Source: a virus. From it: a stretch of DNA of 21,907 bases. Below the pieces are notes generated by a model, which saw nothing but the letters and a program-made list of their open reading frames with translations, was not told the origin of the DNA and made no database searches. The DNA lies in the IMG/VR virus record IMGVR_UViG_3300020203_000380, positions 1 through 21,907 of that record, one strand, 5' to 3'. Of this stretch, positions 861-19,811 are shown in pieces. The position numbers were made by a program, and so were the translations under genes. Position 1 is the stretch's first letter, and the number at the start of each line of letters is the position of its first letter.

Positions 861-1373
861 GTGGCCGTACCCGACTACACGACCGTACTTCCGTACATCA
901 ACCGGCAGGCCAGGGCATACGCCTACGCCTACCGACTCGACGAAGACGACCTGATCTCCCTGGGCGGACTGACCTTCATCGTGGCGTCCCGCGAGTGGGA
1001 CGCCACCAAGTCCCCGGACTTCACGAAGTGGTTCAAGGTGCAACTGCTGCGGGCCGTCCTGAACGTCGTGCGGAAGGAACTCCGCCGCCGCAAACTGGTG
1101 AAGATCGACTACGGGCACGACGTGGTCGAAGTCCAAGACCCGTCGGCCGGTGACCCCGACGTGAGTCCTGCCAGGGTGATCCCCCACCCGGAGGCCCGCC
1201 GGCTGGCGGCCGAAGCCCTGCGGTTGGGGAAGGCGTGGTACGTCAAGAACCCGTACCACGTCAGGGCCGAGTTGTACCGCCGCCTCAAGGCGAAGTCGAA
1301 GTGGAACTACCGCCGCTTCACGCGGGCGGCCGAACAGATTCACACCTACTTAACCGTCAGGAGGGCGTCATGA
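861..1373 (+). CDS. Sigma-70 region 2-like protein, 170 aa
   Basis: Residues about 5-75 resemble sigma-70 region 2, the part that binds RNA polymerase and the -10 element: aromatic helix YINRQARAYAYAY, the acidic DEDDLISLGGL turn, a WDATKSPDFTKWF stretch like the FDP.G..F.TY signature, then a basic helix ending NVVRKELRRR. No clear region 4 helix-turn-helix follows; the C-terminus is basic and helical. The same frame is open far upstream, but GTG 861 has GGAG at 849-852 and codon use becomes typical only from there. The stop overlaps the helicase start (ATGA). Possible roles are an alternative or partial sigma factor, or another nucleic-acid-binding regulator. Confidence 0.65.
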   Translation: MAVPDYTTVLPYINRQARAYAYAYRLDEDDLISLGGLTFIVASREWDATKSPDFTKWFKVQLLRAVLNVVRKELRRRKLVKIDYGHDVVEVQDPSAGDPDVSPARVIPHPEARRLAAEALRLGKAWYVKNPYHVRAELYRRLKAKSKWNYRRFTRAAEQIHTYLTVRRAS

Positions 1374-3808
1374 CGACCGGCCTACTCACCGTCCCGTACT
1401 TGTACCAGCAAAAGGGGGTGGCTAAGCTGCTGAGAATGCTCCGGCACGGCGGGGCGATCCTGGCGGACGAGATGGGACTGGGCAAAGCTCAACCGAACGA
1501 CACCAAGGTGATGACCCCCCACGGGTACCGCCTCTTGAAGAACCTACGGGTCGGCGACCTCGTTACCGGGAGTGACGGCCAGCCCACGACCGTCACCGGC
1601 GTATTCCCGCAAGGGAAGAAGGTGGTCTACCAAATCACGTTCCGGGACGGCAGTTCGACCCGCTGCTGCGACGACCACTTGTGGGCCGTCCAGACCCCGG
1701 CGCGCCGCTTCCTAGGCCAGCCGTGCCGCGTCCTTCCGCTCAAGGAGATCAAAAACGACCTGTTCGACGCCGCCGGGAATGCGAAGCACTTCGTCCCGAT
1801 GGTGAGTCCCGTCGCGTTCATCGACCAGGGGATGGGAGACCTGCCGCTGGACCCGTACCTGCTAGGCTACTTGTTGGCGAACGGGTGTCTGCGAGGGAGC
1901 GCGAAGGTGACGATCCCCGATCAGGAGACCGTCGAACGATTGACGCCCCTCCTTCCTCGCGGGTACGTCCTCAAGCGAGACTCGGAGTACGACTACCGGA
2001 TTACCCGAAAGGTCAGAAAGGGCAGGCCGAACAAGGTCATCACCGCCTTGAGGGAACTCGGCGCGTTCGGCAAGATGTCGTACCAGAAGAGAATCCCGAA
2101 AAGGTACCTGTTCTCGTCTACTGAGGTCCGACTGCGAGTCCTTCAAGGTCTGATGGACGGCGACGGGACGGCGGGGGCGAAGGACGGTCGCATAGAGTTC
2201 GATTCGTCGAGTCGGGGGCTGGTAAAGGACGTTCGGTTCATCGTGCAGAGCCTCGGCGGGACGGGGATCGTTTCCCTCCGACAGTCGCCGACGTACACCT
2301 ACAAAGGAGAGAAGCGGACGGGACTTCCTTCGTGGCGACTGGGCATCCGGATGCCGGCCGGTACGCCCGCATTCCTCCTGTCCCGGAAGGCGGACAGGCG
2401 GGGAACGGCCAAGTATCATCCCAGCCGTCCTATAGTGGCGGTAGAAGAGGTCGGCGTCGAGCCGTGTCGGTGTATCTCCGTGGCCGCCGCCGACAACCTG
2501 TACGTCACGGAGGACTTCATCGTGACGCACAACACGCTGAGCGCCATCGCCGTCTACGCCGAACTGCGGAAGTTACACCCCGGCCGCCCCCTCCTGGTCG
2601 TCTGCCCGGCGGGCCTCCGGCTGAACTGGCAGAACGAGTTCCGCATTCACCTGGGGATTCACGCCACCGTCTTGGAGGGCCGCAAGTGCGACGTGGACCT
2701 GCTCAGTGGAGAGGCGTTCATCCTCGGCTACGACACCGTCGGCAGTCCCGACGGGAAGCACTCCTGGGCCAGGGCCATCCGCCGCGTCCGGCCGTGTCTG
2801 GTCGTCCTCGACGAGTGCCACCTGCTCAAGAGCCGGGCGGCCAAGCGGACCAAGTTCGTCGTAAACCTGGCGAGGCGTATCCCGCACACGCTGGCCATGT
2901 CCGGCACCCCCCTGGTGAACCGCCCGGTCGAGTTGTGGCCGGTGATAAACCTGTGCCGCCCCGACCTGTATCCGAACTTCATGGAGTTCGCCCACCGCCA
3001 CTGCCGCCCGGAACGGAAGCCGTGGGGGTGGGAGTTCAAGGGGGCCGACCACATAGACGAACTGCACCACGACCTGACTATGAACATGATGGTCCGCCGG
3101 CTGAAAGCCGACGTGCTGAAAGACTTACCGGGTAAGCGGCGGCACGTCGTCCCCGTGGAGATCGTAGACCGGCCCCAGTACGAGGAGGCCCACCACAGCT
3201 TCATTCAGTGGATGAAGAAGAACTACCGGCACAAACTGCGGGGGGCGAAGAAGGCCGAGATCCTGGTGCAGATGGGGTACATGATCCGACTGGTGGGTCG
3301 CCTCAAACTGCCGGCCGTCGTCGAGTGGGCGGACGACTGGCTGACGCGGACGAAGAAGAAGCTCCTCCTGTTCGGCCGCCACACGAAGCCCCTGGAGTTC
3401 ATCCGGGACGAGTTCCGGCGGCACGGGGCCGTCCTCATCACCGGCTCCGTCCTCCCCCGCAAGAGGAAGGCGATTCAGGCCACCTTCCAGACGAATCCCC
3501 GGTGCCGACTGTTCGTCGGCAACATGGACGCAGCCGGAGCCGGCTGGAACGCCACGGCCGGGAAGGCGACCGCTTTCGCCGAGTACGACTGGCGGCCGGG
3601 CATCCACATGCAGTGCGAGGACCGCATTCACCGGATCGGCCAGACGGAAGGCACCGATCATTACTACCTGACCGCGATTGACACCATCGAAGACAAGCTG
3701 GTGGCCGTCTTGCGGGAGAAGCAACTGGTTCTAGACGCCACCCTGGACGGCGGCGACGTGCCCGACGCCCTGTCCGTGTTCGACGACTTCTTGGCCCGCA
3801 TCCTATAA
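1370..3808 (+). CDS. SNF2-family DNA helicase/translocase interrupted by an intein (812 aa precursor)
   Basis: The precursor is an SF2 ATPase of the compact SNF2/SMARCAL1-like type, about 463 aa once the intein is removed. Visible motifs: YQQKGVAKL (Q-motif-like), EMGLGK at 34-39 joined after splicing to T389 (Walker A), DECH at 481-484, SGTP at 511-514, GAGWNATAG near 723-731 and EDRIHRIGQ at 750-758. Such enzymes move on or anneal DNA at forks; here the likely role is phage replication or recombination. ATG 1370 overlaps the preceding stop and has GGAGGG just upstream; the longer open frame to 1235 is unsupported. The intein (residues 40-388) breaks the ATP-binding loop, so ATPase activity should require splicing. 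thyX follows 12 bases later. Confidence 0.92.
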   Translation: MTTGLLTVPYLYQQKGVAKLLRMLRHGGAILADEMGLGKAQPNDTKVMTPHGYRLLKNLRVGDLVTGSDGQPTTVTGVFPQGKKVVYQITFRDGSSTRCCDDHLWAVQTPARRFLGQPCRVLPLKEIKNDLFDAAGNAKHFVPMVSPVAFIDQGMGDLPLDPYLLGYLLANGCLRGSAKVTIPDQETVERLTPLLPRGYVLKRDSEYDYRITRKVRKGRPNKVITALRELGAFGKMSYQKRIPKRYLFSSTEVRLRVLQGLMDGDGTAGAKDGRIEFDSSSRGLVKDVRFIVQSLGGTGIVSLRQSPTYTYKGEKRTGLPSWRLGIRMPAGTPAFLLSRKADRRGTAKYHPSRPIVAVEEVGVEPCRCISVAAADNLYVTEDFIVTHNTLSAIAVYAELRKLHPGRPLLVVCPAGLRLNWQNEFRIHLGIHATVLEGRKCDVDLLSGEAFILGYDTVGSPDGKHSWARAIRRVRPCLVVLDECHLLKSRAAKRTKFVVNLARRIPHTLAMSGTPLVNRPVELWPVINLCRPDLYPNFMEFAHRHCRPERKPWGWEFKGADHIDELHHDLTMNMMVRRLKADVLKDLPGKRRHVVPVEIVDRPQYEEAHHSFIQWMKKNYRHKLRGAKKAEILVQMGYMIRLVGRLKLPAVVEWADDWLTRTKKKLLLFGRHTKPLEFIRDEFRRHGAVLITGSVLPRKRKAIQATFQTNPRCRLFVGNMDAAGAGWNATAGKATAFAEYDWRPGIHMQCEDRIHRIGQTEGTDHYYLTAIDTIEDKLVAVLREKQLVLDATLDGGDVPDALSVFDDFLARIL
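1487..2533 (+). mobile_element. Class 3-type intein with LAGLIDADG endonuclease domain (349 aa)
   Basis: The insert starts at AQPNDTKVMTPHG and ends EDFIVTHN, between K and T of the host Walker A motif, with Thr as +1 residue. The N-terminal residue is Ala, not Cys or Ser. Block B reads CCDDHLW (H64, W66), block F reads CRCISV (C329) and block G reads THN (T347, H348, N349). W66, C329 and T347 give the WCT triplet of class 3 inteins, which splice through the block F cysteine. Endonuclease motifs are LLGYLLANG (125-133) and LQGLMDGDG (219-227). Numbers are within the intein. The first motif has Asn where the catalytic Asp is usual, so cleavage activity is uncertain. A class 3 intein is known in the Deinococcus radiodurans Snf2 protein. 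Confidence 0.9.
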
Positions 3809-10310: not shown

Positions 10311-10331
10311 GTAGCTGTAGAGTGTTCAGTC

Positions 10332-10393
10332 CCCCTCCTCCGAAACTCGCGGGAGGGGCCGCGAAACCGCGGGTGGGGCATAACCCCACCCGC
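10332..10393 (+). promoter_or_regulatory. Two tandem hairpins in the leader of the repeat-protein gene
   Basis: CCCCTCC (10332-10338) pairs with GGAGGGG (10352-10358). A second, perfect 10-bp stem is formed by GCGGGTGGGG (10369-10378) and CCCCACCCGC (10384-10393) around CATAA. The second ends 18 bases before ATG 10412. Neither is followed by a T-run, so they more likely stabilise the leader RNA or control translation than terminate transcription. Confidence 0.5.
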
Positions 10394-10411
10394 CTCCTGG
10401 GAGATGGGATC

Positions 10412-11293
10412 ATGGCGAAGACGAAAACGACCTCCGGCCGCGAGCCGCTGGCGTTCGACCGGGCCACGGTCGTGTCGCTGTTCCGGAAGTCCGAGGTGTC
10501 GAAGACCGCCCACAAGGAAACCGACGACTGGCTGGCCCAGAAACTCGGCACCCTCGCCGATCACCTCGACGACGAAGACCTGGCCGACTTGGAAAAGAAG
10601 GACGAAGACCTTCACGAAGCGGCCGTGGCCGCGATGGAAGAGGTGGCGGCGGGCGGGTCGGTCGTGGTCGTGTCCGACACGGACACCGAAGACGACGCCG
10701 ACGATGCCGACACCGAAGCCGAAGCCGAAGCCGACGATGCCGACACCGAAGCCGAGGAGCCGGTGGTCCCGGCGAAGCCCGCCGCGAAGAAGACGGTCCC
10801 GGCGAAGCCCGCCGCTAAGACGCCGGTCAAGGCCCCCAAGAAGCCCGCTCCCCCGGTCGAGGACGACGAGGACGACGAAGACGACGAGGACGACGAGCCG
10901 GTGCCCGTCCCGGCGAAGGGCGGCAAGAAGCCGGTGCCCGTCCCGGCGAAGGGCGGCAAGAAGACGGTCCCGGTCAAGCCCGCCGCGAAGAAGCCGGCCA
11001 AGGAAGCCGCCGCCCCCAAGAAGCCGCGGAAGTCGGGGGTCATCTATCAGATCGTGAACTACCTGTCGAAGGCGTCCGCCGCTAAGCCGGTCACGAAGGC
11101 GACGATCATCGTCGCCCTGGGCAAGAAGTTCGGCGCGGAGCGGACCGTCGAGGGAATGACGGTGACGGTCAACTCTCAAATCAACGGTCAGTTGAAGGCC
11201 AACTGGGGCGTCCAGTTGGGCAAGAAGGAGATGAAGTCGGGCGAGCGGGGCTTCTGGATCGACGACCTGGGGAACTACACGCTCGAAGACTGA
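10412..11293 (+). CDS. Acidic and Lys/Ala/Pro-rich repeat protein with conserved C-terminal domain, 293 aa
   Basis: Function is not known. Residues 1-80 are helical and charged. Residues 88-117 are an acidic Asp/Glu/Ala/Thr tract. Residues 118-208 alternate basic repeats (VPAKPAAKKT twice; PVPVPAKGGKK twice) with the acidic block DDEDDEDDEDDE at 151-162. The basic repeats recall the tails of bacterial histone H1-like proteins. Residues 209-288 form a compact domain ending GERGFWIDDLGN, paralogous to the ORF at 10001-10273 and possibly a winged helix. ATG 10412 has GGGAG at 10399-10403. A DNA-binding or genome-organising role is a reasonable inference. The low-complexity part may be an evolving linker. 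Confidence 0.8.
   Translation: MAKTKTTSGREPLAFDRATVVSLFRKSEVSKTAHKETDDWLAQKLGTLADHLDDEDLADLEKKDEDLHEAAVAAMEEVAAGGSVVVVSDTDTEDDADDADTEAEAEADDADTEAEEPVVPAKPAAKKTVPAKPAAKTPVKAPKKPAPPVEDDEDDEDDEDDEPVPVPAKGGKKPVPVPAKGGKKTVPVKPAAKKPAKEAAAPKKPRKSGVIYQIVNYLSKASAAKPVTKATIIVALGKKFGAERTVEGMTVTVNSQINGQLKANWGVQLGKKEMKSGERGFWIDDLGNYTLED
10766..10825 (+). repeat. Tandem 30-base repeat within the repeat-protein gene
   Basis: Two adjacent copies of a 30-base unit start at 10766 and 10796, each beginning GTCCCGGCGAAGCCCGCCGC and encoding VPAKPAAKKT or VPAKPAAKTP. The copies differ at only a few bases. They keep the reading frame and probably arose by slippage or unequal exchange. Confidence 0.85.
10898..10963 (+). 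repeat. Tandem 33-base repeat within the repeat-protein gene
   Basis: Two adjacent copies of a 33-base unit start at 10898 and 10931, each beginning CCGGTGCCCGTCCCGGCGAA and encoding PVPVPAKGGKK. The two copies read as identical. Such recent duplication suggests that the length of this linker varies among relatives. Confidence 0.85.
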
Positions 11294-11382: not shown

Positions 11383-11814
11383 ATGGTTAGCAGCCACGCG
11401 ATCACCCGCCGGTTGGAGTTCGACGCCGGCCACCGGGTCTACGGGCACGAAGGGAAGTGCAATCACTTACACGGTCACCGGTACGTCGCCGAGATCACCG
11501 TTCAGTCGCGGACGCTCGACGGCATCGGCCGCGTGGTGGACTTCGGGGTCGTGAAGAAAAAGGTCGGCACCTGGATCGACCGCGAGTGGGATCACAACGT
11601 ACTGCTCAACGTCGGCGATCCGCTGATGCAGGACCGGGAATTCTGGGCCAAGAACGGCCGCTTCCCGTTCGTCCTTGCGGAGAACCCGACGGCCGAAGTC
11701 ATGGCGGCGTACCTGTTCGGAGTGGCACAAAGCCTCCTTCCCGAACTGATCGTGTCGAAGGTGCGCATCTACGAGACGCCGAACTGCTGGGCCGATTACC
11801 CCACCAACTCCTAA
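11383..11814 (+). CDS. queD: 6-carboxytetrahydropterin synthase QueD, 143 aa
   Basis: QueD converts 7,8-dihydroneopterin triphosphate, made by FolE, to 6-carboxy-5,6,7,8-tetrahydropterin, the second step towards preQ0. Zinc ligands are visible as H17 in FDAGHRV and H30 and H32 in CNHLHGHRY, with C26 the catalytic cysteine. Also present are D70-H71 in WDHN, the PTAE motif (102-105) and E131 in IYETP. The 143-aa length fits the family. The related eukaryotic pyruvoyl-tetrahydropterin synthases share the fold, but the adjacent queE and queC make QueD the natural assignment. ATG 11383 has only a weak GGA upstream. queE follows after 12 bases. Confidence 0.95.
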   Translation: MVSSHAITRRLEFDAGHRVYGHEGKCNHLHGHRYVAEITVQSRTLDGIGRVVDFGVVKKKVGTWIDREWDHNVLLNVGDPLMQDREFWAKNGRFPFVLAENPTAEVMAAYLFGVAQSLLPELIVSKVRIYETPNCWADYPTNS

Positions 11815-11826
11815 CAGGAGGCTGTC

Positions 11827-12609
11827 GTGACGACTCCCTTAGTGGTGCTGAACGAACAACCCGTCAGTCCCGTCGTCCCCCTGACCGACCCGCCGACCCT
11901 CTCCGTGGTCGGCTCTCCCTGGCTGACCATCCAGGGAGAAGGGCCGCTCGCCGGCACCCGCGCCGTGTTCGTGCGACTGGCCGGATGTACACTTAGGTGC
12001 TTGACCTGCGACACCGACTATACGACGGACGCCAGAGACGTGGCGGTCGAATCCCTGGCCGCCACGGTTAACCTGCTCATGATCGGGGCCGACAGGTGGG
12101 GCGACGTTGCCGGCGGCGACCGCTGGAAAATCCTGGCCAACCGCTCGGTCGTCGTCATCACGGGCGGCGAGCCGATGCGACAGGAAGCCCTGGTGCCGTT
12201 CGTCCGCCACCTCACCCTCGACTACGGTCTGGCCGTGCAGATCGAGACGAACGGCACCCTGGGGCTGGAAGACCTGCCGTGGCTGAGCGACAAGTTGTCG
12301 GTCGTCGTGTCGCCGAAGGCGTCGTACATCCACCCGCTCATCCGGGAGTACGCGACGGCGTACAAGTTCGTGGTCACCGCCGACAAGATCGACATGGCTC
12401 GCGGTCTGCCCACGGTCGTACTGGGGCGGCCGGTGAAGTTCACGTTCGACATGCTGGGAGACACCAGTCGTCGGCAGATTTACGTCCAGCCCGAAGACGC
12501 GCAGGACGACGAGCAGAACGCCAAGAACCTGAAAGCGGCCCTGTGGGTGGTCGAGACGTTCGGCCACCGCTTGTCGGTGCAGACGCACAAAATGATCGGT
12601 GTCCCCTGA
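11827..12609 (+). CDS. queE: 7-carboxy-7-deazaguanine synthase QueE, 260 aa (radical SAM)
   Basis: QueE is a radical SAM enzyme that contracts the pterin ring to give 7-carboxy-7-deazaguanine. The iron-sulfur motif CxxxCxxC is present as C54, C58 and C61 in GCTLRCLTCDTDY. The substrate loop IQGEGPLAGTRAVFVRLAG precedes it, GGEP (113-116) binds SAM, an IETNG strand follows, and the C-terminus LSVQTHKMIGVP is characteristic of the family. GTG 11827 has a full AGGAGG at 11816-11821, the clearest ribosome site in the window. The first 25 residues are a proline- and valine-rich extension not needed by the fold. A strong hairpin follows the gene. Confidence 0.95.
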   Translation: MTTPLVVLNEQPVSPVVPLTDPPTLSVVGSPWLTIQGEGPLAGTRAVFVRLAGCTLRCLTCDTDYTTDARDVAVESLAATVNLLMIGADRWGDVAGGDRWKILANRSVVVITGGEPMRQEALVPFVRHLTLDYGLAVQIETNGTLGLEDLPWLSDKLSVVVSPKASYIHPLIREYATAYKFVVTADKIDMARGLPTVVLGRPVKFTFDMLGDTSRRQIYVQPEDAQDDEQNAKNLKAALWVVETFGHRLSVQTHKMIGVP

Positions 12610-12623
12610 GAATTCAGTAAAAC

Positions 12624-12667
12624 TGACGCCGCCCGCGACGACTTTAAGTTCGTCGCGGGCGGCGTCA
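12624..12667. terminator. Very strong 18-bp hairpin between queE and queC
   Basis: The stem GACGCCGCCCGCGACGA (12625-12641) pairs perfectly with TCGTCGCGGGCGGCGTC (12650-12666), with one more T-A pair outside it. An A-run (GTAAAAC) lies before and CATTT after, so it could work as an intrinsic terminator in both directions. It is unexpected inside a biosynthetic operon and implies attenuation, partial read-through or a new promoter for queC. The 5' arm and loop resemble the intergenic element at 21163-21220. Confidence 0.75.
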
Positions 12668-12700
12668 TTTCCGTCCGCCCTAACCCACCGAGGACGACCA

Positions 12701-13423
12701 ATGTCGAAGGTCAGAGCGGTCATAGCCCTGAGCGGCGGTCTCGATTCGACCGTGGCCCTGGCCATGACCATGGAAACCCAGAAACTCAAGCCGGACGAGA
12801 TGATCGCCGTCACCTTCTACTACGGCTCCAAGCACGGCGTGTGGGAGACCAGGGCGGCCGAGAAGGTGCGCCAGTTCTACGGCATCCCGGCGGTGACGAA
12901 TCACCTCAAGATAGACCTGTCGGCGTCGCTGGCGGCGGCGGCTAAGGTGTCGTCCCTGGGGGCGACGAACCCGGCCGCGATCCCGGAGGGCCACTACAAC
13001 GACGAGACCATGAGGAGTACGGTCGTCCCCGGCCGCAACCTGATGTTCCTGTCGGTCTTGTCGTCGGTGGCCGAAGCGTCACTGGGCGGGATGCGGCAGG
13101 AAGGCACTGTGATGGTCGTCCTCGGCGTTCACCAGGGAGACCATCACATCTACCCGGACTGCCGGCCGGAGTTCGTCCGCGCGGCCGGCGAAGCCGTGTG
13201 CGAATCGACGGATTATTCCGTCGGCCTGTACACCCCCCTGTTGAACATGGACAAGGCGGACATCGTGCGGGCGGGCATCGCCTTGAAGGTGCCCTTCCAG
13301 CATACTCGCACCTGCTACAAGAATCAGGAACGGTCGTGCGGCAAGTGCGGCTCCTGCGTCGAGCGGCTGGAAGCCTTCGCCGCCAACGGCGTCACCGATC
13401 CCATCCTGTACGAGGTGCAGTAA
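12701..13423 (+). CDS. queC: 7-cyano-7-deazaguanine synthase QueC, 240 aa
   Basis: QueC uses ATP and ammonia to convert 7-carboxy-7-deazaguanine to preQ0. The ATP PP-loop is SGGLDST at 11-17. Four zinc cysteines close the protein: C205, C213, C216 and C219 in CYKNQERSCGKCGSC. PGRNLMFLSVLSSVAEASLG (110-129) and GVHQGDHHIYPDCRPEF are standard family segments. Length matches the usual 220-240. ATG 12701 has GAGGA at 12690-12694; the frame stays open further upstream across the hairpin, which is not coding. folE starts at the base after the stop, so the two are co-translated. No glutamine amidotransferase domain is fused, which argues against a Gat-QueC type. Confidence 0.96.
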   Translation: MSKVRAVIALSGGLDSTVALAMTMETQKLKPDEMIAVTFYYGSKHGVWETRAAEKVRQFYGIPAVTNHLKIDLSASLAAAAKVSSLGATNPAAIPEGHYNDETMRSTVVPGRNLMFLSVLSSVAEASLGGMRQEGTVMVVLGVHQGDHHIYPDCRPEFVRAAGEAVCESTDYSVGLYTPLLNMDKADIVRAGIALKVPFQHTRTCYKNQERSCGKCGSCVERLEAFAANGVTDPILYEVQ

Positions 13424-14002
13424 ATGACCAGCGGTAACCTCGTAGCTGGCATCGAAGAGTTCATGCGATACCGCATTCCCGACTTCGACGACCGGAAGGA
13501 CTTGAAGGCTACGCCGGAGCGCGTGTACGAAGCCCTCCTACAGATGACTTCGGGGCACGACGACCGCGAGTGGGATGTCGAGCAACTACTCCGACTGTTC
13601 CCGATCCAGTGCGACGAGATGGTTCTCGTCCGCGGCATCCAGTTCGCCAGTCTGTGCGAACACCATCTGATGCCGTTCTTCGGCGAAGCCCACGTTGCCT
13701 ACCTGCCCGACCCGGCGCGTGGTGTGGTGGGACTGAGCAAGCTGTCCCGTCTGGTCAGCGTGTACGCCAAACGGCTTCAAGTCCAGGAGAGACTGACCGT
13801 AAACATCACCGGGGCACTCGACCGGTACGTCACGACCAGAGGATCGGCGTGCGTCATCCGGGCCACGCACGGGTGCATGTCTTGTCGAGGAGTGAACCAG
13901 CCGATGGCCGACACCATCACGTCGTCGCTAACCGGTCATTTCCGGGTTTCGGAAGTGCGTGCCGAACTGCTGTCGCTGATCGGTGATCTTCGGCACGCCT
14001 GA
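13424..14002 (+). CDS. folE: GTP cyclohydrolase I FolE, 192 aa
   Basis: FolE converts GTP to 7,8-dihydroneopterin triphosphate, the entry step for both folate and 7-deazaguanine synthesis; the adjacent que genes point to the latter. The signature SLCEHHLMPF gives zinc ligands C78 and H81, with C151 in HGCMSC as the third. GLSKLSRLVSVYAKRLQVQE (103-122) and RGVNQP are further hallmarks. At 192 aa it is a little shorter than E. coli FolE, mainly at the N-terminus. The start abuts the queC stop with no spacer. Carrying its own FolE would let the phage bypass host control of GTP entry into the pathway. Confidence 0.96.
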   Translation: MTSGNLVAGIEEFMRYRIPDFDDRKDLKATPERVYEALLQMTSGHDDREWDVEQLLRLFPIQCDEMVLVRGIQFASLCEHHLMPFFGEAHVAYLPDPARGVVGLSKLSRLVSVYAKRLQVQERLTVNITGALDRYVTTRGSACVIRATHGCMSCRGVNQPMADTITSSLTGHFRVSEVRAELLSLIGDLRHA

Positions 14003-14019
14003 TAGCCGTTCTTTCGGGC

Positions 14020-14066
14020 GCGGGAAAGGGCGTCTCACGGCCGATTTAAGACACGATCTTTCCCGC
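14020..14066 (+). promoter_or_regulatory. Long-range hairpin after folE
   Basis: GCGGGAAAG (14020-14028) pairs perfectly with CTTTCCCGC (14058-14066). A short inner GTCT/AGAC stem is possible in the loop, and the outer arms extend past one mismatch. It lies in the 110-base gap between folE and the next gene and is followed by A/C-rich sequence, not a T-run. It may separate the preQ0 genes from the dpdA unit. I could not recognise a known preQ1 riboswitch fold in it. Confidence 0.4.
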
Positions 14067-14112
14067 CCCACTAAAACCCAAAACGGCCGCAAAAGCCGAA
14101 GGATAGGCCGCT

Positions 14113-14523
14113 GTGCCTCTGAGAATCGTACCCGCAGGGGGCGAATCCCGTTCCCCCCGCCCGTCGGCCCCCGTCGCCGCCCTCCCGGTGATTCAATTCG
14201 AGGTCAAGGGCCGGTCGGCCCTGTTCGGCGGTTCCCTCCGAAAGTGTCGGGTGTCCGGCGAAGTCGTGCCGGCGGGCGAAGTGGCGACGACGTACCTGCT
14301 CCGCCTGTCGGAGCGGGTCGCCTCCTTGCTGGAGTCGTGGGCCGACGAAGAGATTACCCTGGAGGCCGCCGCCCAGCAGGTTCTAGTGTCGATTCAGAGT
14401 GCGATGGAGTACCACGAGGCGACCGTGTGCGTCCGCCTCAAAGTGTCTGACGCCGTCTACCTGTCGGCGGTCATCGACAGTACCGATTTCTTCGCCGGAG
14501 GGGGACAATGTCCGGCCGCCTGA
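14113..14523 (+). CDS. Hypothetical protein between folE and dpdA, 136 aa
   Basis: No family is recognised. GTG 14113 has AAGGA at 14098-14102. After a proline- and serine-rich N-terminus of about 25 residues, the chain reads as a compact mixed alpha/beta domain: strands around VIQFEVKGRSALFGG and KCRVSGEVV, a long helix around TTYLLRLSERVASLLESW, and later strands ATVCVRLKVSDAVYLSAVI. No catalytic or metal-binding cluster is clear. It does not show the QueF signature. The 3' end overlaps dpdA by 16 bases, which implies coupled translation and a possible role with the transglycosylase. That role is inferred from position only. Confidence 0.72.
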   Translation: MPLRIVPAGGESRSPRPSAPVAALPVIQFEVKGRSALFGGSLRKCRVSGEVVPAGEVATTYLLRLSERVASLLESWADEEITLEAAAQQVLVSIQSAMEYHEATVCVRLKVSDAVYLSAVIDSTDFFAGGGQCPAA

Positions 14524-15533
14524 TGATGCTCGATTCGGGGGCGTACACGGTCATGTCGGCCAACAAGGTGATCGACATTCACGATTACATCCGGTTTTGC
14601 CGGGAACACCCGGACTGCTCGTACTACGTCAACCTCGACGTGATTCCGACCTCGTCGTCCCCGACGGTCATCGAGGCGGCGTCGAACGCCTCCTGGGACA
14701 ACTACTTGCAAATGATCCAGGAACTGCCGCGAGACAAGGTGCTGCCCGTGTACCACTACGGGGCGTCGCTGAGCCACCTGCGGAAAATCCTGGCGTTCGG
14801 CTGCCCCTACGTCGGCCTGGGCGGCAGCGCCCACAAGTCCACCGGCTTGCGGACGAAGTGGCTGAGGACTCTGAGAAAGGAGGTGTTCGACGGGGCCGGC
14901 AGGCCGGTCGTTATGACGCACGGGTTCGCCGTGACGAGTTACGACCTGATGAAGGTGTGGGAGTGGCACTCGGTCGATTCGGCCAGTTGGAAGGACTTCG
15001 CCAACTACGGGGCGATCTACCTGCCCATCGAGCGGGCGGGCAGGTTCGACTACGACACCAAGCCGATGGTCGTGTTCACCACGCCGCAATCGACGAAGCG
15101 CGACCGGCAACAGCACTACGACACCCTCAGCCCGCTACTCCAGGAGCGGATGGGCAGGTGGTTGGCCAGTTGCGGGGTGTGCATGGGGACCAGCCAATAC
15201 ATACCCGTTCCCGCCGGCCAGAAGTACAAGCTGGACGTTCCCGCCGGGGAAATCTGGCAGACGAAGGGAACCCTGGTTCTACGCCCGGCACCGCCCGAAG
15301 GTAAAGGAGTGACGAACAGTTTCGAGATGCGGGCCAAGGTGAACTCGAAGTTCGTAGCCCGGTCTAACGCCGTCTTGCCGGTGAAGCACATCTATTTTGC
15401 GGGCCAAACCATGCCCTACCCGCTTGAGTTTCAGATTAAGAGACGCTTACTTTCTTACTACTACACGAATGAGTCGCCGTCCAATGTCCGATACCTAGAA
15501 GAACACCTACGAAGAATCCGGGAGGGCATCTGA
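14508..15533 (+). CDS. dpdA: DpdA-like DNA 7-deazaguanine transglycosylase, 341 aa
   Basis: The protein belongs to the tRNA-guanine transglycosylase superfamily and resembles phage DpdA, which exchanges guanine in DNA for a 7-deazaguanine. Visible family segments: MLDSGAYTVMS with D9 (like DSGGF of tRNA enzymes), YYVNLDVIP with D44, the barrel strand VYHYGASLSHL, YVGLGGSAHKS around 101-111, MTHGFAVTSYDLM, and HSVDSASW with D157. The C-terminal half holds SCGVCMGTSQY and a basic helical tail. Which aspartates are catalytic is inferred by analogy. ATG 14508 has GGAGGGGG just upstream; ATG 14523 (TGATG) is an alternative. Co-location with queD, queE, queC and folE supports DNA over tRNA as substrate. 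Confidence 0.87.
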   Translation: MSGRLMMLDSGAYTVMSANKVIDIHDYIRFCREHPDCSYYVNLDVIPTSSSPTVIEAASNASWDNYLQMIQELPRDKVLPVYHYGASLSHLRKILAFGCPYVGLGGSAHKSTGLRTKWLRTLRKEVFDGAGRPVVMTHGFAVTSYDLMKVWEWHSVDSASWKDFANYGAIYLPIERAGRFDYDTKPMVVFTTPQSTKRDRQQHYDTLSPLLQERMGRWLASCGVCMGTSQYIPVPAGQKYKLDVPAGEIWQTKGTLVLRPAPPEGKGVTNSFEMRAKVNSKFVARSNAVLPVKHIYFAGQTMPYPLEFQIKRRLLSYYYTNESPSNVRYLEEHLRRIREGI

Positions 15534-15534
15534 C

Positions 15535-16060
15535 GTGGTACTTACTAAAGAGAGGTGGCGGTGGGTGGTGGGATACGCGGACTACGCCGTGAGTTCTCGC
15601 GGGCGGGTTCTGTCTTTCCGCCGTAAGGTACCTCTTCTTCTTACGGCGTGCCCCACATTCAAAGGCTACCTGGGACTCCGGCTGTTCTCGTACTACGGCA
15701 AAGGTCGGTGGTTCTCGGTTCATCGGCTGGTCGCTCTCGCCTTCGTGCCCAACCCGGACGATCTGCCGGAAGTGAATCACAAGGACGGCGACAAGGCGAA
15801 CAACGTGGCGGCGAACTTGGAGTGGGTTACTCACGGATAACGCACTACACGCTTCCCGCACCGGACTGTTACGTCCGGTGCGGGGGGTTCTCCACCATAA
15901 CGCCAAGCTGAACGAAGTGAAGGTGGCTAAAATCCGGAGGCTGTACGCGACCGGGAGGTACACGCAGGCCGTTCTCGGAGAGAAGTTCGGAGTCGATCAG
16001 ACCATCATCAGCGACATCGTCCGTTACAAAATCTGGAAAGACATAAAGGAGGGCGTGTGA
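15535..16060 (+). pseudogene. HNH homing-type endonuclease broken by a frameshift
   Basis: The first part (15535-15840) has a NUMOD4 start (WRWVVGYADYAVSSRGRVLS), then HRLVALAFVPNP, VNHKDGDKANN and NLEWVTH, the classic HNH endonuclease core, but then stops at TAA. From 15836 the +1 frame continues the family sequence as DNALHASRTGLLRPVRGVLH and HHNAKLNEVKVAKIRRLYAT, with a C-terminal DNA-binding helix-turn-helix (YTQAVLGEKFGVDQTIISDI) and TGA at 16058-16060. A loss of two bases, or gain of one, near 15835 explains this. The HNH core itself is complete, so the short product may still cut DNA. GTG 15535 starts two bases after dpdA; the end overlaps the clamp gene (GTGA). Confidence 0.8.
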
Positions 16061-17100
16061 AGATCAAACGATCCGTGTTGATAGCTCAGTTGGAAGCGGT
16101 GCGGGCCGGTCTGTCGCCCAAGGACATCGTAGACCAGGCGAGTTGCTTCGCCTTCGCCGACGGGAAGGTGATGACCTTCAACGACGAGGTGGCCTGCTGG
16201 GGGCCGTCGGCGTTCACGCCGGAGTCGGGCATCGCCGTCCCGTCCGGCCCGCTGCTCACCCTCCTGCCCAAGCTGCTGGACGAGGACCTCGACTTGTCGT
16301 CGAGCGGCACGTCCCTGGTCATCAAGGGGAAGAACAAGCGGACGACAATCCGCGTCGAAGCCGAGGTGAGACTGCCGATCAACACCGTCGCGCCACCGGC
16401 CGATGCCGACTACTTCCCCATCCCCGACGGGTTCGCCGACGGACTGGCCCTGGTGGAGAAGTGCGCCGGGGCGGACGAAGCCGACTTCAAGTACACCTGC
16501 ATTCACATCACGCCCAAGTGGATGGAGGCGTGCGACAACAATCAGGTGAGCCGCTACCGGCTAAAGATTCCCGGCCTCAAGCGGAACCTGCTCATCCGGA
16601 AGGAGGCCGTCAAGGCCGTCCTGGCGGTCGAACTGCGGCGGATGGCCGTCGCCGGAAGCTGGCTGTTCTTCGAGGGCGGCCAGGGCATGGTGATCGCCTG
16701 CCGAAAGCACGACGAGGAGTACGTCGATCTGACTTCGGTGCTGGAAGACGAGGAGGGGCGAGTGGACGCCGAGTTGCCTAAAGGTCTGGGAGAGTCGGCG
16801 GAGAACGCCGGCGTGTTCTCCGCCGACAACGCCGACGACGACAAGGTGCTGGTGTGCCTCGCCAACGGGCAGGCCCGGATCACCGGCGAAGGGGCGATGG
16901 GGAACCACGTCGAGGTGAAGCGGGTGAAGTACGACGGCCCGCCGATCACCTTCCACATCCCGCCCAAACTCCTCCAGACGATCACGACGAATCACCCGGA
17001 GTGTTCCCTGAACCAGCGGTCGCTGAAAGTCGTCGTCGGGCGGCTGACGTACCTGGTCAGCCTCACCGTCGTCCCGCCCAAAACTACCGAAGCGGAGTAG
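16057..17100 (+). CDS. DNA polymerase sliding clamp (DnaN/beta-like), 347 aa
   Basis: The protein has the length and layout of bacterial beta clamps, ring-shaped processivity factors loaded on DNA. Supporting segments are the N-terminal MKIKRSVLIAQLEAV, the strand pattern IRVEAEVRLPIN near residue 110, the central LIRKEAVKAVLAVELRRM and the C-terminal ITFHIPPKLLQTI and LTYLVSLTVVPP, which fit the third clamp domain. Sequence likeness is low, so the call leans on architecture and context: a clamp loader lies at 20243 and the polymerase genes follow directly. GTG 16057 overlaps the end of the HNH frame. The next gene begins three bases after its stop. A PCNA-type clamp is less likely given the length. 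Confidence 0.75.
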   Translation: MKIKRSVLIAQLEAVRAGLSPKDIVDQASCFAFADGKVMTFNDEVACWGPSAFTPESGIAVPSGPLLTLLPKLLDEDLDLSSSGTSLVIKGKNKRTTIRVEAEVRLPINTVAPPADADYFPIPDGFADGLALVEKCAGADEADFKYTCIHITPKWMEACDNNQVSRYRLKIPGLKRNLLIRKEAVKAVLAVELRRMAVAGSWLFFEGGQGMVIACRKHDEEYVDLTSVLEDEEGRVDAELPKGLGESAENAGVFSADNADDDKVLVCLANGQARITGEGAMGNHVEVKRVKYDGPPITFHIPPKLLQTITTNHPECSLNQRSLKVVVGRLTYLVSLTVVPPKTTEAE

Positions 17101-17103
17101 CCC

Positions 17104-18369
17104 GTGTCTTTCTTCCCCCACGGAGTAGCCGCCAGTGACCGACAGAAGACGCCGGACAAGTTCGTCGGAGTGGCCCCCCGGTGCGGGGACTGCGGGTACT
17201 ACAAAACGTGCAACTCGCCGAAGATGAAACCGGCCGGCAGCGGGGACGTACTGGTCATCGGCGACTTCCCCGACACCCACTCCGACTTAGTCGGCAAGTC
17301 GATTTCCGGGGCGGCGGCGGCGCTGCTGTCCCGGACGTTGTCGCGGGTCGGGCGGTCAACGGCCGACGTGGTGATAATGAACGCCCTGTCGTGCCGCCCG
17401 GACACGACGGGCGGCGAGAAGTCAACGGGCGTGGCCGTCCGGCACTGCCGCCCCCTGGTGCGTCAGGCCATCGACAAGTACAAGCCGAAGGTCATCATCC
17501 CGATGGGCGACCTGGCTATTCAGTCGGTCATCGCCCCGTTCCGGCCGCCGGGGGACCGCATGGCGGCCAGCAGGTGGAGCGGCTACCAGATTCCCCTGCC
17601 GCCGCTGGGGGCGTGGGTGTGTCCGACCGTCGATCCCAAAGGGGCGGCCCTGGCCGCCGACGGGGACGGGTCACTCGGCGGAAGGAGGACGGCAGTCCCG
17701 TCCATCCTGTTCGACGGGCACGTCCGGGCGGCCGTCGGCAAGGTGGACGACGACGTGACGGTGACCGATCCGGCTAAAGGTGTGTCCCTGGTGGGAGAAG
17801 TCAGAGCCGTCCGGTGGCTCGACGCGGTCGTCGAGAGGGGTGGAATCGTCGCCTTCGACTTCGAGACGACCGGACTCAAGCCGGACCTCGCCGCCCAGCG
17901 GATCGTGTGCTGTTCGGTGTGCTACAACGGGAACAACACTATCGCGTTCATGTGGACGCCGGTCGTTCAGGCGGCGATGATAAGACTCCTGCGAAGTGAT
18001 ACGGTGGGTAAGGTCGCGTCGAACATGATGTTCGAGACTCGCTGGTGCATGGCCAAGCTGCGGACGCGGGTCAACCGGTGGGTGTGGGACACGATGCAGG
18101 TGGCCCACGTCCTCGACGCGCGGGGCGACGACCCGGCGGACGGGATCACCTCGATCAAATTCCAGGCGTTCGCCCTGTTCGGGGTAGAGCCGTGGAACGG
18201 CGGCGTCGATAAGTACCTGGGGGCGGCGGGAGCGAACGCCCTGAACCGGGTTCACGAGATCGACCAGCGGACGCTACTCACCTACTGCGCCATAGACTCC
18301 CGCATGGAGTACCTTGTCGCCCGCCGCCAGTCTAAGATGGTCGGCGTCAACTTGGAGGACTGGAGATGA
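17104..18369 (+). CDS. UDG-like / 3'-5' exonuclease fusion (N-terminal half of a split DNA polymerase), 421 aa
   Basis: Residues about 20-185 resemble family 4 uracil-DNA glycosylases: cysteines C27, C30, C36, C97 and C115 could hold an iron-sulfur cluster, NALSCRPD matches the N.l.CRP motif, and KPKVIIPMGDLAIQSV fits the fold. The usual catalytic GEAPG loop is altered to GDFPDTHS, so glycosylase activity is doubtful. Residues about 235-410 form a DnaQ/PolA-type proofreading exonuclease: FDFETTGL (D252, E254), VASNMMFE (307-311), WDTMQVAHVLD (D329) and YCAID (Y394, D398). The stop overlaps the polymerase start (ATGA). Phage SPO1 polymerase is recalled as having a UDG-like domain joined to exonuclease and polymerase; here the chain is divided. 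Confidence 0.85.
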   Translation: MSFFPHGVAASDRQKTPDKFVGVAPRCGDCGYYKTCNSPKMKPAGSGDVLVIGDFPDTHSDLVGKSISGAAAALLSRTLSRVGRSTADVVIMNALSCRPDTTGGEKSTGVAVRHCRPLVRQAIDKYKPKVIIPMGDLAIQSVIAPFRPPGDRMAASRWSGYQIPLPPLGAWVCPTVDPKGAALAADGDGSLGGRRTAVPSILFDGHVRAAVGKVDDDVTVTDPAKGVSLVGEVRAVRWLDAVVERGGIVAFDFETTGLKPDLAAQRIVCCSVCYNGNNTIAFMWTPVVQAAMIRLLRSDTVGKVASNMMFETRWCMAKLRTRVNRWVWDTMQVAHVLDARGDDPADGITSIKFQAFALFGVEPWNGGVDKYLGAAGANALNRVHEIDQRTLLTYCAIDSRMEYLVARRQSKMVGVNLEDWR

Positions 18370-19811
18370 CTGCGGGCCGACTTCATCCGGCCACGGCCGA
18401 CGCCCTCCGGCTGTGGCACGACGGGTGCGAAGAACTGGCAGTGGTTCAGCACAACGGCATCCGGATAGACGTAGACTACTTGGAAGCCAAGCGGGTCGAA
18501 CTGCGGGCCGACGAAGCCGTCCGCGTCGGTCGCCTGAAAGAGTCGGACGTGTGGCGGGCGTGGCGCAAGCGGTTCGCGCAGAAGGCCCTCATCACGTCCG
18601 AACAGCAGTTGAGTGAGGTTCTGTTCTCCATGATGAAGATCGCCCCGCCGCCGGGCACCCGCCGGAACAAGAACGGCAAGCTGGCCGTGAGCGAAGAGAT
18701 CCTCGACAAGATCGACCACCCGTTCGTCCGCGACCTGATGACCCTCCGGAAGATCAGGAAGCTCTGCTCCACCTACATCGACGGCTGGCTGGCCGAACAG
18801 GTGGGGGGCTACCTGCACCCGTTCTTCAACCTTCACAAGGCGGCGTCTTTCCGGAGTTCGAGCGAGGCTCCCAACTTCCAGAACGTCCCCGTCCGACACC
18901 CGGTCAACGGGCCGCTCGTCCGGCGGGCGTTCATCCCGCGCGGTCCCGACCGGCGGATCGTCGAGATCGACTTCGCCGGGGCCGAGGTGCGTGTCGCCGG
19001 GTGCTGCACCGGCGACCCCGCCCTGATGAACTACTTAATCGGTAACGGGGACATGCACCGGGACGTGGCGAAAGACCTGTTCTTGCTAGACGACTCCCAG
19101 GTGGACAAGAAGTCAACGCGGGACTGGGCCAAGAACCGGTTCGTCTTCCCCCAGTTCTACGGGAGCGTATGGTTTCAGTGCGCGCCGAACTTGTGGGACG
19201 CCGTGGTCGCGTCGTCCGCCGAAGTCCCCGGCACGGGCTTGTCGGTGATGGCTCACCTGAAATCGAAGGGGGTGAAGGGACTGGGCAGTTGCGACCCCAA
19301 AGACCCGCCCCAGGAGGGGACGTTCGCCGCCCTGGTGTTGAAGGCCGAACGGGTCATGTGGGACAAGCGGTTCAAGGTGTTCACCAAGTGGAAGCGGGAC
19401 TTGTGGGATTCGTACCAGCGAACGGGGTACATTCACATGGCCACCGGGTTCACGTCGGCCAGCGTGCCGATGCGGAGAAATCAGGTACTCAACTTCCCGG
19501 TGCAAGGCCCGGCCTTTCACTGCCTCCTGTGGTGCCTCGTCCGGGTTCAGCGGGAACTCCGGAAGTACAAGATGAAGGGGAGGGTGATCGGCCAGGTCCA
19601 CGACTCGATTCTGGGCGACGTGCCCGACCGGGAGATTCAAAACTTCCTGGAGATTTCTTACCGGGTGATGACGAAGGACATCATGGCGGCGTGGGCGTGG
19701 CTCACGGTCCCCCTGGAGGCCGAAGCCGAGGTGTCCCCCGTCGGCGGGGCGTGGGCGGACAAGGCCCAGTGGCTTCCGAAGAACGGCGTCTGGAGTCCCG
19801 TCATCAAATGA
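18366..19811 (+). CDS. Family A DNA polymerase (polymerase domain only), 481 aa
   Basis: This is the replicative DNA polymerase core. Motif A is VEIDFAGAEVRVAGCCTGDP with the catalytic Asp and conserved Glu; motif B is RDWAKNRFVFPQFYGS; motif C is QVHDSILGD. SEAPNFQNVPVR matches the family NLQN.P.R segment. In motif B the YG pair is one residue further from the Lys than in E. coli or T7 enzymes, a form I associate with some phage polymerases. There is no exonuclease domain; it is supplied by the gene that overlaps it upstream (ATGA). The two products probably associate. The SLOG-like gene begins 10 bases after the stop. Confidence 0.94.
   Translation: MTAGRLHPATADALRLWHDGCEELAVVQHNGIRIDVDYLEAKRVELRADEAVRVGRLKESDVWRAWRKRFAQKALITSEQQLSEVLFSMMKIAPPPGTRRNKNGKLAVSEEILDKIDHPFVRDLMTLRKIRKLCSTYIDGWLAEQVGGYLHPFFNLHKAASFRSSSEAPNFQNVPVRHPVNGPLVRRAFIPRGPDRRIVEIDFAGAEVRVAGCCTGDPALMNYLIGNGDMHRDVAKDLFLLDDSQVDKKSTRDWAKNRFVFPQFYGSVWFQCAPNLWDAVVASSAEVPGTGLSVMAHLKSKGVKGLGSCDPKDPPQEGTFAALVLKAERVMWDKRFKVFTKWKRDLWDSYQRTGYIHMATGFTSASVPMRRNQVLNFPVQGPAFHCLLWCLVRVQRELRKYKMKGRVIGQVHDSILGDVPDREIQNFLEISYRVMTKDIMAAWAWLTVPLEAEAEVSPVGGAWADKAQWLPKNGVWSPVIK

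Follow-up and report, generated by a model that had tools for sequence, protein, structure and literature searches.

Does the locus at positions 11383 to 15533 of IMG/VR record IMGVR_UViG_3300020203_000380 enable an uncultivated phage to replace guanine in its own DNA, and, if it does, with which base? Guanine replacement of the 7-cyano-7-deazaguanine (preQ0) type is a known phage defense against restriction enzymes. We analyzed the record in full: it is a 21,907-base linear fragment, referred to here as the window, and its main genes are all carried on the plus strand. The original prediction had read the locus as a complete preQ0 pathway joined to a DpdA-like transglycosylase, i.e., as a 7-deazaguanine DNA-modification system, and this reading is supported by the genes, by their order and by the catalytic motifs of the encoded enzymes. 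We consider it likely that preQ0 is synthesized from GTP by the phage's own FolE, QueD, QueE and QueC, acting in turn, and that DpdA, a predicted triosephosphate isomerase (TIM)-barrel transglycosylase acting on DNA, puts preQ0 in the place of guanine in phage DNA. The product would be 2'-deoxy-7-cyano-7-deazaguanosine (dPreQ0), which we would expect in virion DNA, and the modified guanines would partly block host restriction enzymes. The system is well supported as real and is ordinary in kind, joining the known phage systems for preQ0 DNA modification as a new but distant member, and it extends this type of modification to a distant lineage of uncultivated phages.

The window carries genes for preQ0 synthesis and a DNA guanine transglycosylase

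The genes for FolE, QueD, QueE, QueC and DpdA are all intact and on the same strand, and each lies where the original prediction had placed it, with only the start of queC shifting. The first gene, queD (11383..11814, + strand), encodes a 6-carboxy-tetrahydropterin synthase of 143 residues that matches PF01242 (E-value 1.5e-32) and phrog_2389 (1.6e-33); its PDB sequence matches are PTPS/QueD proteins, including 2oba and 4ntm, and its score of 82.5 bits against the NCBIfam model TIGR03367 is slightly below the cut-off of 89.25. The product of queE (11827..12609, +) is a 260-residue radical S-adenosylmethionine (SAM) 7-carboxy-7-deazaguanine synthase (phrog_2076, 1.7e-42), in which the CxxxCxxC motif is present as GCTLRCLTC and for which the PDB sequence matches 6nhl, 4njg and 5tgs are all synthases of the same kind. 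The 240-residue 7-cyano-7-deazaguanine synthase encoded by queC (12701..13423, +; PF06508, 3.6e-49) features the SGGLDST loop and a C..C..C..C zinc motif, matches the QueC structures 2pg3 and 3bl5 by sequence, and is without a fused amidotransferase domain. Its open reading frame (ORF) is open from a GTG at 12599, but the conserved protein begins at the ATG at 12701 (MSKVRAVIALSGGLDST), downstream of a hairpin described below, and the latter codon is most likely the start. Finally, folE (13424..14002, +) encodes a GTP cyclohydrolase I of 192 residues that matches PF01227 (3.8e-54), scores above the cut-off of NF006825 and matched 15 PDB sequences.

The gene that would act on DNA is dpdA (14508..15533, +), which encodes a DNA guanine transglycosylase of the DpdA, rather than the DpdA2, type. 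Its product matches phrog_887 (1.3e-37), the phage 'queuine tRNA-ribosyltransferase' family, i.e., DpdA. As sequence matches, the family assignments of the five genes are far beyond chance. Using the window DpdA as a tblastn query, we retrieved 188 phage records, including CAjan, 9g and mycobacteriophages, and the closest DpdA from an isolate was that of Edwardsiella phage ZHS (38% identity over residues 6-223). A DpdA alignment of 63 homologs shows no variation in the D9-S-G-A motif, D44, H83, H138 or D157-S. The residue aligned with H138 in phage 9g is H196, the histidine by which DpdA, which has it, is told apart from DpdA2, which lacks it (PMC6884629).

The claim of a DpdA-like enzyme depended on a tRNA-guanine transglycosylase (TGT)-like barrel and active site, which we examined with an AlphaFold2 model built from the 63-sequence alignment; a single-sequence run (pLDDT of 37) was discarded. 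The model, which has a pLDDT of 92.8 and a pTM of 0.90, predicts a TGT-like TIM barrel with catalytic aspartates at D9 and D157, and among viral folds it is matched best by phage 'queuine tRNA-ribosyltransferases' (DpdA). Together with the invariant residues, these results do not refute the claim. Against the PDB, the model matched TIM barrels weakly, with none below an E-value of 0.001; mouse TGT (7b2i) aligned with a probability of 0.98 and a root-mean-square deviation of 3.8 Å over 170 columns at an E-value of only 0.063, and the predicted fold thus shows a modest match to solved TGTs. A sequence search of the PDB with DpdA returned no relevant match.

FolE, QueD, QueE and QueC also form the route to queuosine, and some viruses carry single members of that route (PMC6884629), which could mean that the genes supply queuosine or folate, for the metabolism of host or phage or for modifying tRNA, instead of acting in DNA modification. 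We regard this as very improbable: the tRNA TGT family PF01702 has no match in the window, the best relatives of the transglycosylase are phage DpdAs, the DpdA of phage 9g does not replace tgt (PMC6884629), and the genes are placed within a replication module.

Gene order nearly matches that of phages with measured modifications

Downstream of dpdA are, in order, an HNH gene, a sliding clamp gene, a gene joining a uracil-DNA-glycosylase (UDG) domain to a polymerase exonuclease region, a family A DNA polymerase gene and a clamp loader gene, which places dpdA beside the replisome. The sliding clamp, a conserved neighbor of dpdA, is encoded at 16057..17100 (+; phrog_947, 1.4e-20), the UDG domain with the 3'-5' exonuclease region at 17104..18369 (+; PF03167, 1.7e-11; phrog_17), and the family A polymerase domain as a separate gene at 18366..19811 (+; PF00476, 2e-46). 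The order of que genes, folE, dpdA, clamp and polymerase is common to phages S0112, Me-ZS1, 9g, CAjan, VpKK5, Yong-L2-223 and RHEph04, and two of these, 9g and CAjan, are phages with measured modifications whose gene order nearly matches that of the window. The window polymerase is approximately 25% identical to those of isolates, and the comparison with Queuovirinae is by module gene order only.

Among known systems, we compared the window with the Group 2 phage 7-deazaguanine systems, represented by Escherichia phage CAjan and Mycobacterium phage Rosebush, which carry dPreQ0 (Hutinet et al., 2019). As in the window, the clamp and family A polymerase genes of CAjan lie directly downstream. 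In contrast to Group 2, the order in the window begins with queD, no YhhQ-type transporter was seen in it, the polymerase is split into UDG-exonuclease and polymerase genes, and DpdA is approximately 60 residues shorter at its N-terminus and has a long C-terminal region. Edwardsiella phage vB_EpM_ZHS shares the short DpdA N-terminus and the order from queC through folE, dpdA, clamp and polymerase to the clamp loader. However, its DpdA is 266 residues long without the C-terminal region, its queE homolog is approximately 10 kb away, and extra genes, including an annotated nucleoside 2-deoxyribosyltransferase, separate its dpdA from the clamp gene.

A clade of uncultivated phages shares the DpdA C-terminal region

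The window DpdA contains a clade-specific C-terminal insertion and extension at about residues 224-341 (approximately 118 residues). Searching 50,697 phage records with this region alone produced no match, and an alignment search of IMG/VR identified a clade of uncultivated phages (contigs L100-L118) that share it. The clade, which defines a DpdA subclade, consists of uncultivated phages only, and the region is absent from the isolates searched. The clamp, UDG-exonuclease, polymerase and clamp loader genes are kept beside dpdA in the same order as in the window, and the clade therefore constitutes a coherent lineage. DpdA identity to the window ranges from 32 to 45%, and many members have QueF, an amidotransferase-fused QueC (Gat-QueC), or a glycosyltransferase without QueC.

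Because isolate DpdAs lack this insertion and extension, the system could be present with a DpdA that is inactive or altered in role, and Orion, a phage with DpdA only, is without modification (PMC6884629). Yet every family-invariant residue is retained, approximately a dozen distinct phages of the clade keep DpdA beside folE and que genes, and the frame is undamaged in three contigs, which makes loss or change of function highly unlikely. We infer that the window DpdA is active.

Two further observations concern dpdA itself in this group. Contigs L106 (9001-11050) and L107 carry a tandem pair of dpdA genes, and neither QueC nor the glycosyltransferase was found in them. L181 (QMSR01000001.1), which is binned as a Thermoplasmata archaeon, encodes the same DpdA match as L118 (34% over residues 1-283). 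This hints that the clade includes an archaeal virus or a phage contig that was binned wrongly.

Gene content predicts preQ0 as the endpoint

The original prediction had recognized no enzyme that converts preQ0 further, and it had cautioned that the base could be preQ0 itself. Our searches agree on both counts: neither QueF nor Gat-QueC was found in the window or in two sister contigs, although both occur at the corresponding locus in relatives. The expected product is dPreQ0 because of this gene content and because a DpdA with a full preQ0 gene set of this type gives dPreQ0 (PMC6884629). The sister contigs, IMGVR 3300020057_000453 and 3300020219_000258, are nearly identical to the window and confirm its assembly, with zero base differences in dpdA in both and in queD and folE in 3300020057_000453. 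They lengthen the record by 5.8 kb rightward, to 27.7 kb, adding RecA-like, 5'-3' exonuclease, PD-DExK and N6/N4 methyltransferase genes, among which QueF was not found.

The pathway end varies within the clade. QueF is encoded in L103, L110, L113 and L118, which predicts dPreQ1 for these phages; in each of them, its gene occupies the slot between folE and dpdA (8615-8995 in L103). QueC has an amidotransferase domain in L108, whereas QueC and nothing further is found in the window, L114 and L117, and QueC is missing from L100, L101/L102, L104, L106 and L109. The pathway end has thus been exchanged repeatedly around a conserved DpdA, which points toward modified bases that are open to chemical testing. 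A CxxCxxCC-type gene lies between folE and queF in L103 and L113 (PF03692 for L103). Methyltransferase-like and radical SAM/SPASM-like genes adjoin dpdA in L109 (7184-7813) and L112 (1944-3035 and 4068-4697), where they are possible further tailoring steps.

In the window, the slot between folE and dpdA is filled by orf136 (14113..14523, +), an unassigned gene with a coding-like codon profile (GC content of 0.80 at third codon positions). It matches no Pfam or PHROG family, and its homologs were found only in the sister contigs. By eye and by position, orf136 resembled a diverged QueF, a candidate that we rejected: its hhalign score of 15.8 fell below the top score among 50 shuffles (17.6), and it has neither the CPxTGQPD nor the ESKS motif and no match to PF14489. 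Its membership in the preQ0 pathway, suggested by position, is a guess.

Could the pathway nevertheless pass preQ0, with dPreQ1, dG+, dADG or another derivative formed by orf136 or by a gene that lies beyond the fragment? The clade offers precedents, since its members hold QueF, the amidotransferase-fused QueC, or methyltransferase-like or radical SAM genes at or near a slot that orf136 fills here. However, no relation between orf136 and QueF could be detected, none of the three records contains QueF, and the endpoint genes of relatives lie inside the module, which the window covers fully. We therefore consider an endpoint beyond preQ0 unlikely. A more specific proposal is that orf136 acts as an unrecognized tailoring enzyme yielding an undescribed base from preQ0 or dPreQ0, and that the DpdA C-terminal region is adapted to swapped substrates of this sort; we consider it improbable.

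Several points weigh against dPreQ0 insertion by DpdA as we propose it. Identity of the window DpdA to its counterparts in isolates is only 25-38%, across approximately 60% of its own length, and the protein carries the extra C-terminal region. In addition, orf136 occupies what is the QueF slot of relatives. The tailoring-enzyme search covered QueF and Gat-QueC, without ArcS's own model, in an incomplete genome: the record measures 21.9 kb, or 27.7 kb when extended, compared with 60-80 kb for relatives, the fragment may represent less than half of the phage genome, and a tailoring enzyme could sit elsewhere. A host search using genome contigs yielded only distant DpdAs in three contigs of metagenome-assembled genomes and no host call.

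Glycosyltransferase genes accompany some loci without QueC

The side finding that we consider most interesting does not concern the window itself. In the QueC-less contigs L100, L101/L102, L104 and L109, a glycosyltransferase-family gene lies upstream of queD (L100:5856-6923, L101:2313-3392, L104:5774-6862 and L109:4419-5546), with the L101 product matching Glycos_transf_1 (1.5e-10). Genes of this family are also near dpdA in another DpdA clade (L080:4951-5976 and L082:3005-4162), and related genes lie near queE in Xanthomonas phage X1, Acidovorax phage ACP17 and Pseudomonas phage PA5oct, and near folE in X1 and ACP17. The set thus spans unrelated DpdA clades. QueC scored above the Pfam cut-off nowhere in the available sequence of these glycosyltransferase-bearing records, and none of the QueC-bearing loci in the compared set has this glycosyltransferase. 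Since the pathway would stop at 7-carboxy-7-deazaguanine where QueC is missing, a testable guess from sequence is that these glycosyltransferase-bearing phages contain a glycosylated or otherwise linked 7-carboxy-7-deazaguanine, or a similar base.

Other features of the module and its surroundings

A strong hairpin of 18 pairs lies between queE and queC (12621..12670), formed by a 21-nt inverted repeat that is 95% complementary with an 8-nt loop. It is terminator-like on the minus strand in a terminator scan whose total hits did not exceed those of shuffles, and it is a possible processing or attenuation element. An Rfam scan detected no preQ1 or other riboswitch at the gathering threshold. 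No sigma-70 promoters were found in the module, and terminators were no commoner there than in shuffles.

Directly 3' of dpdA, an HNH/NUMOD4 gene fragment and a separate helix-turn-helix-like ORF (15535-16060) look like a split or decayed homing endonuclease. In the rightward extension, L007:12452-13579 encodes the N6/N4 DNA methyltransferase (PF01555, 3.6e-41), a potential second DNA modification in the same phage. A lysine/proline-rich protein is 323 residues long in the window (10322-11293) and 354 in a near-identical contig (L099:2983-4047), apparently through a change in repeat number. Finally, the SNF2-type helicase at 1370-3808 contains a Hint/LAGLIDADG intein inserted after the Walker A lysine; residue 1 of the intein is alanine, and it is possibly of class 3.
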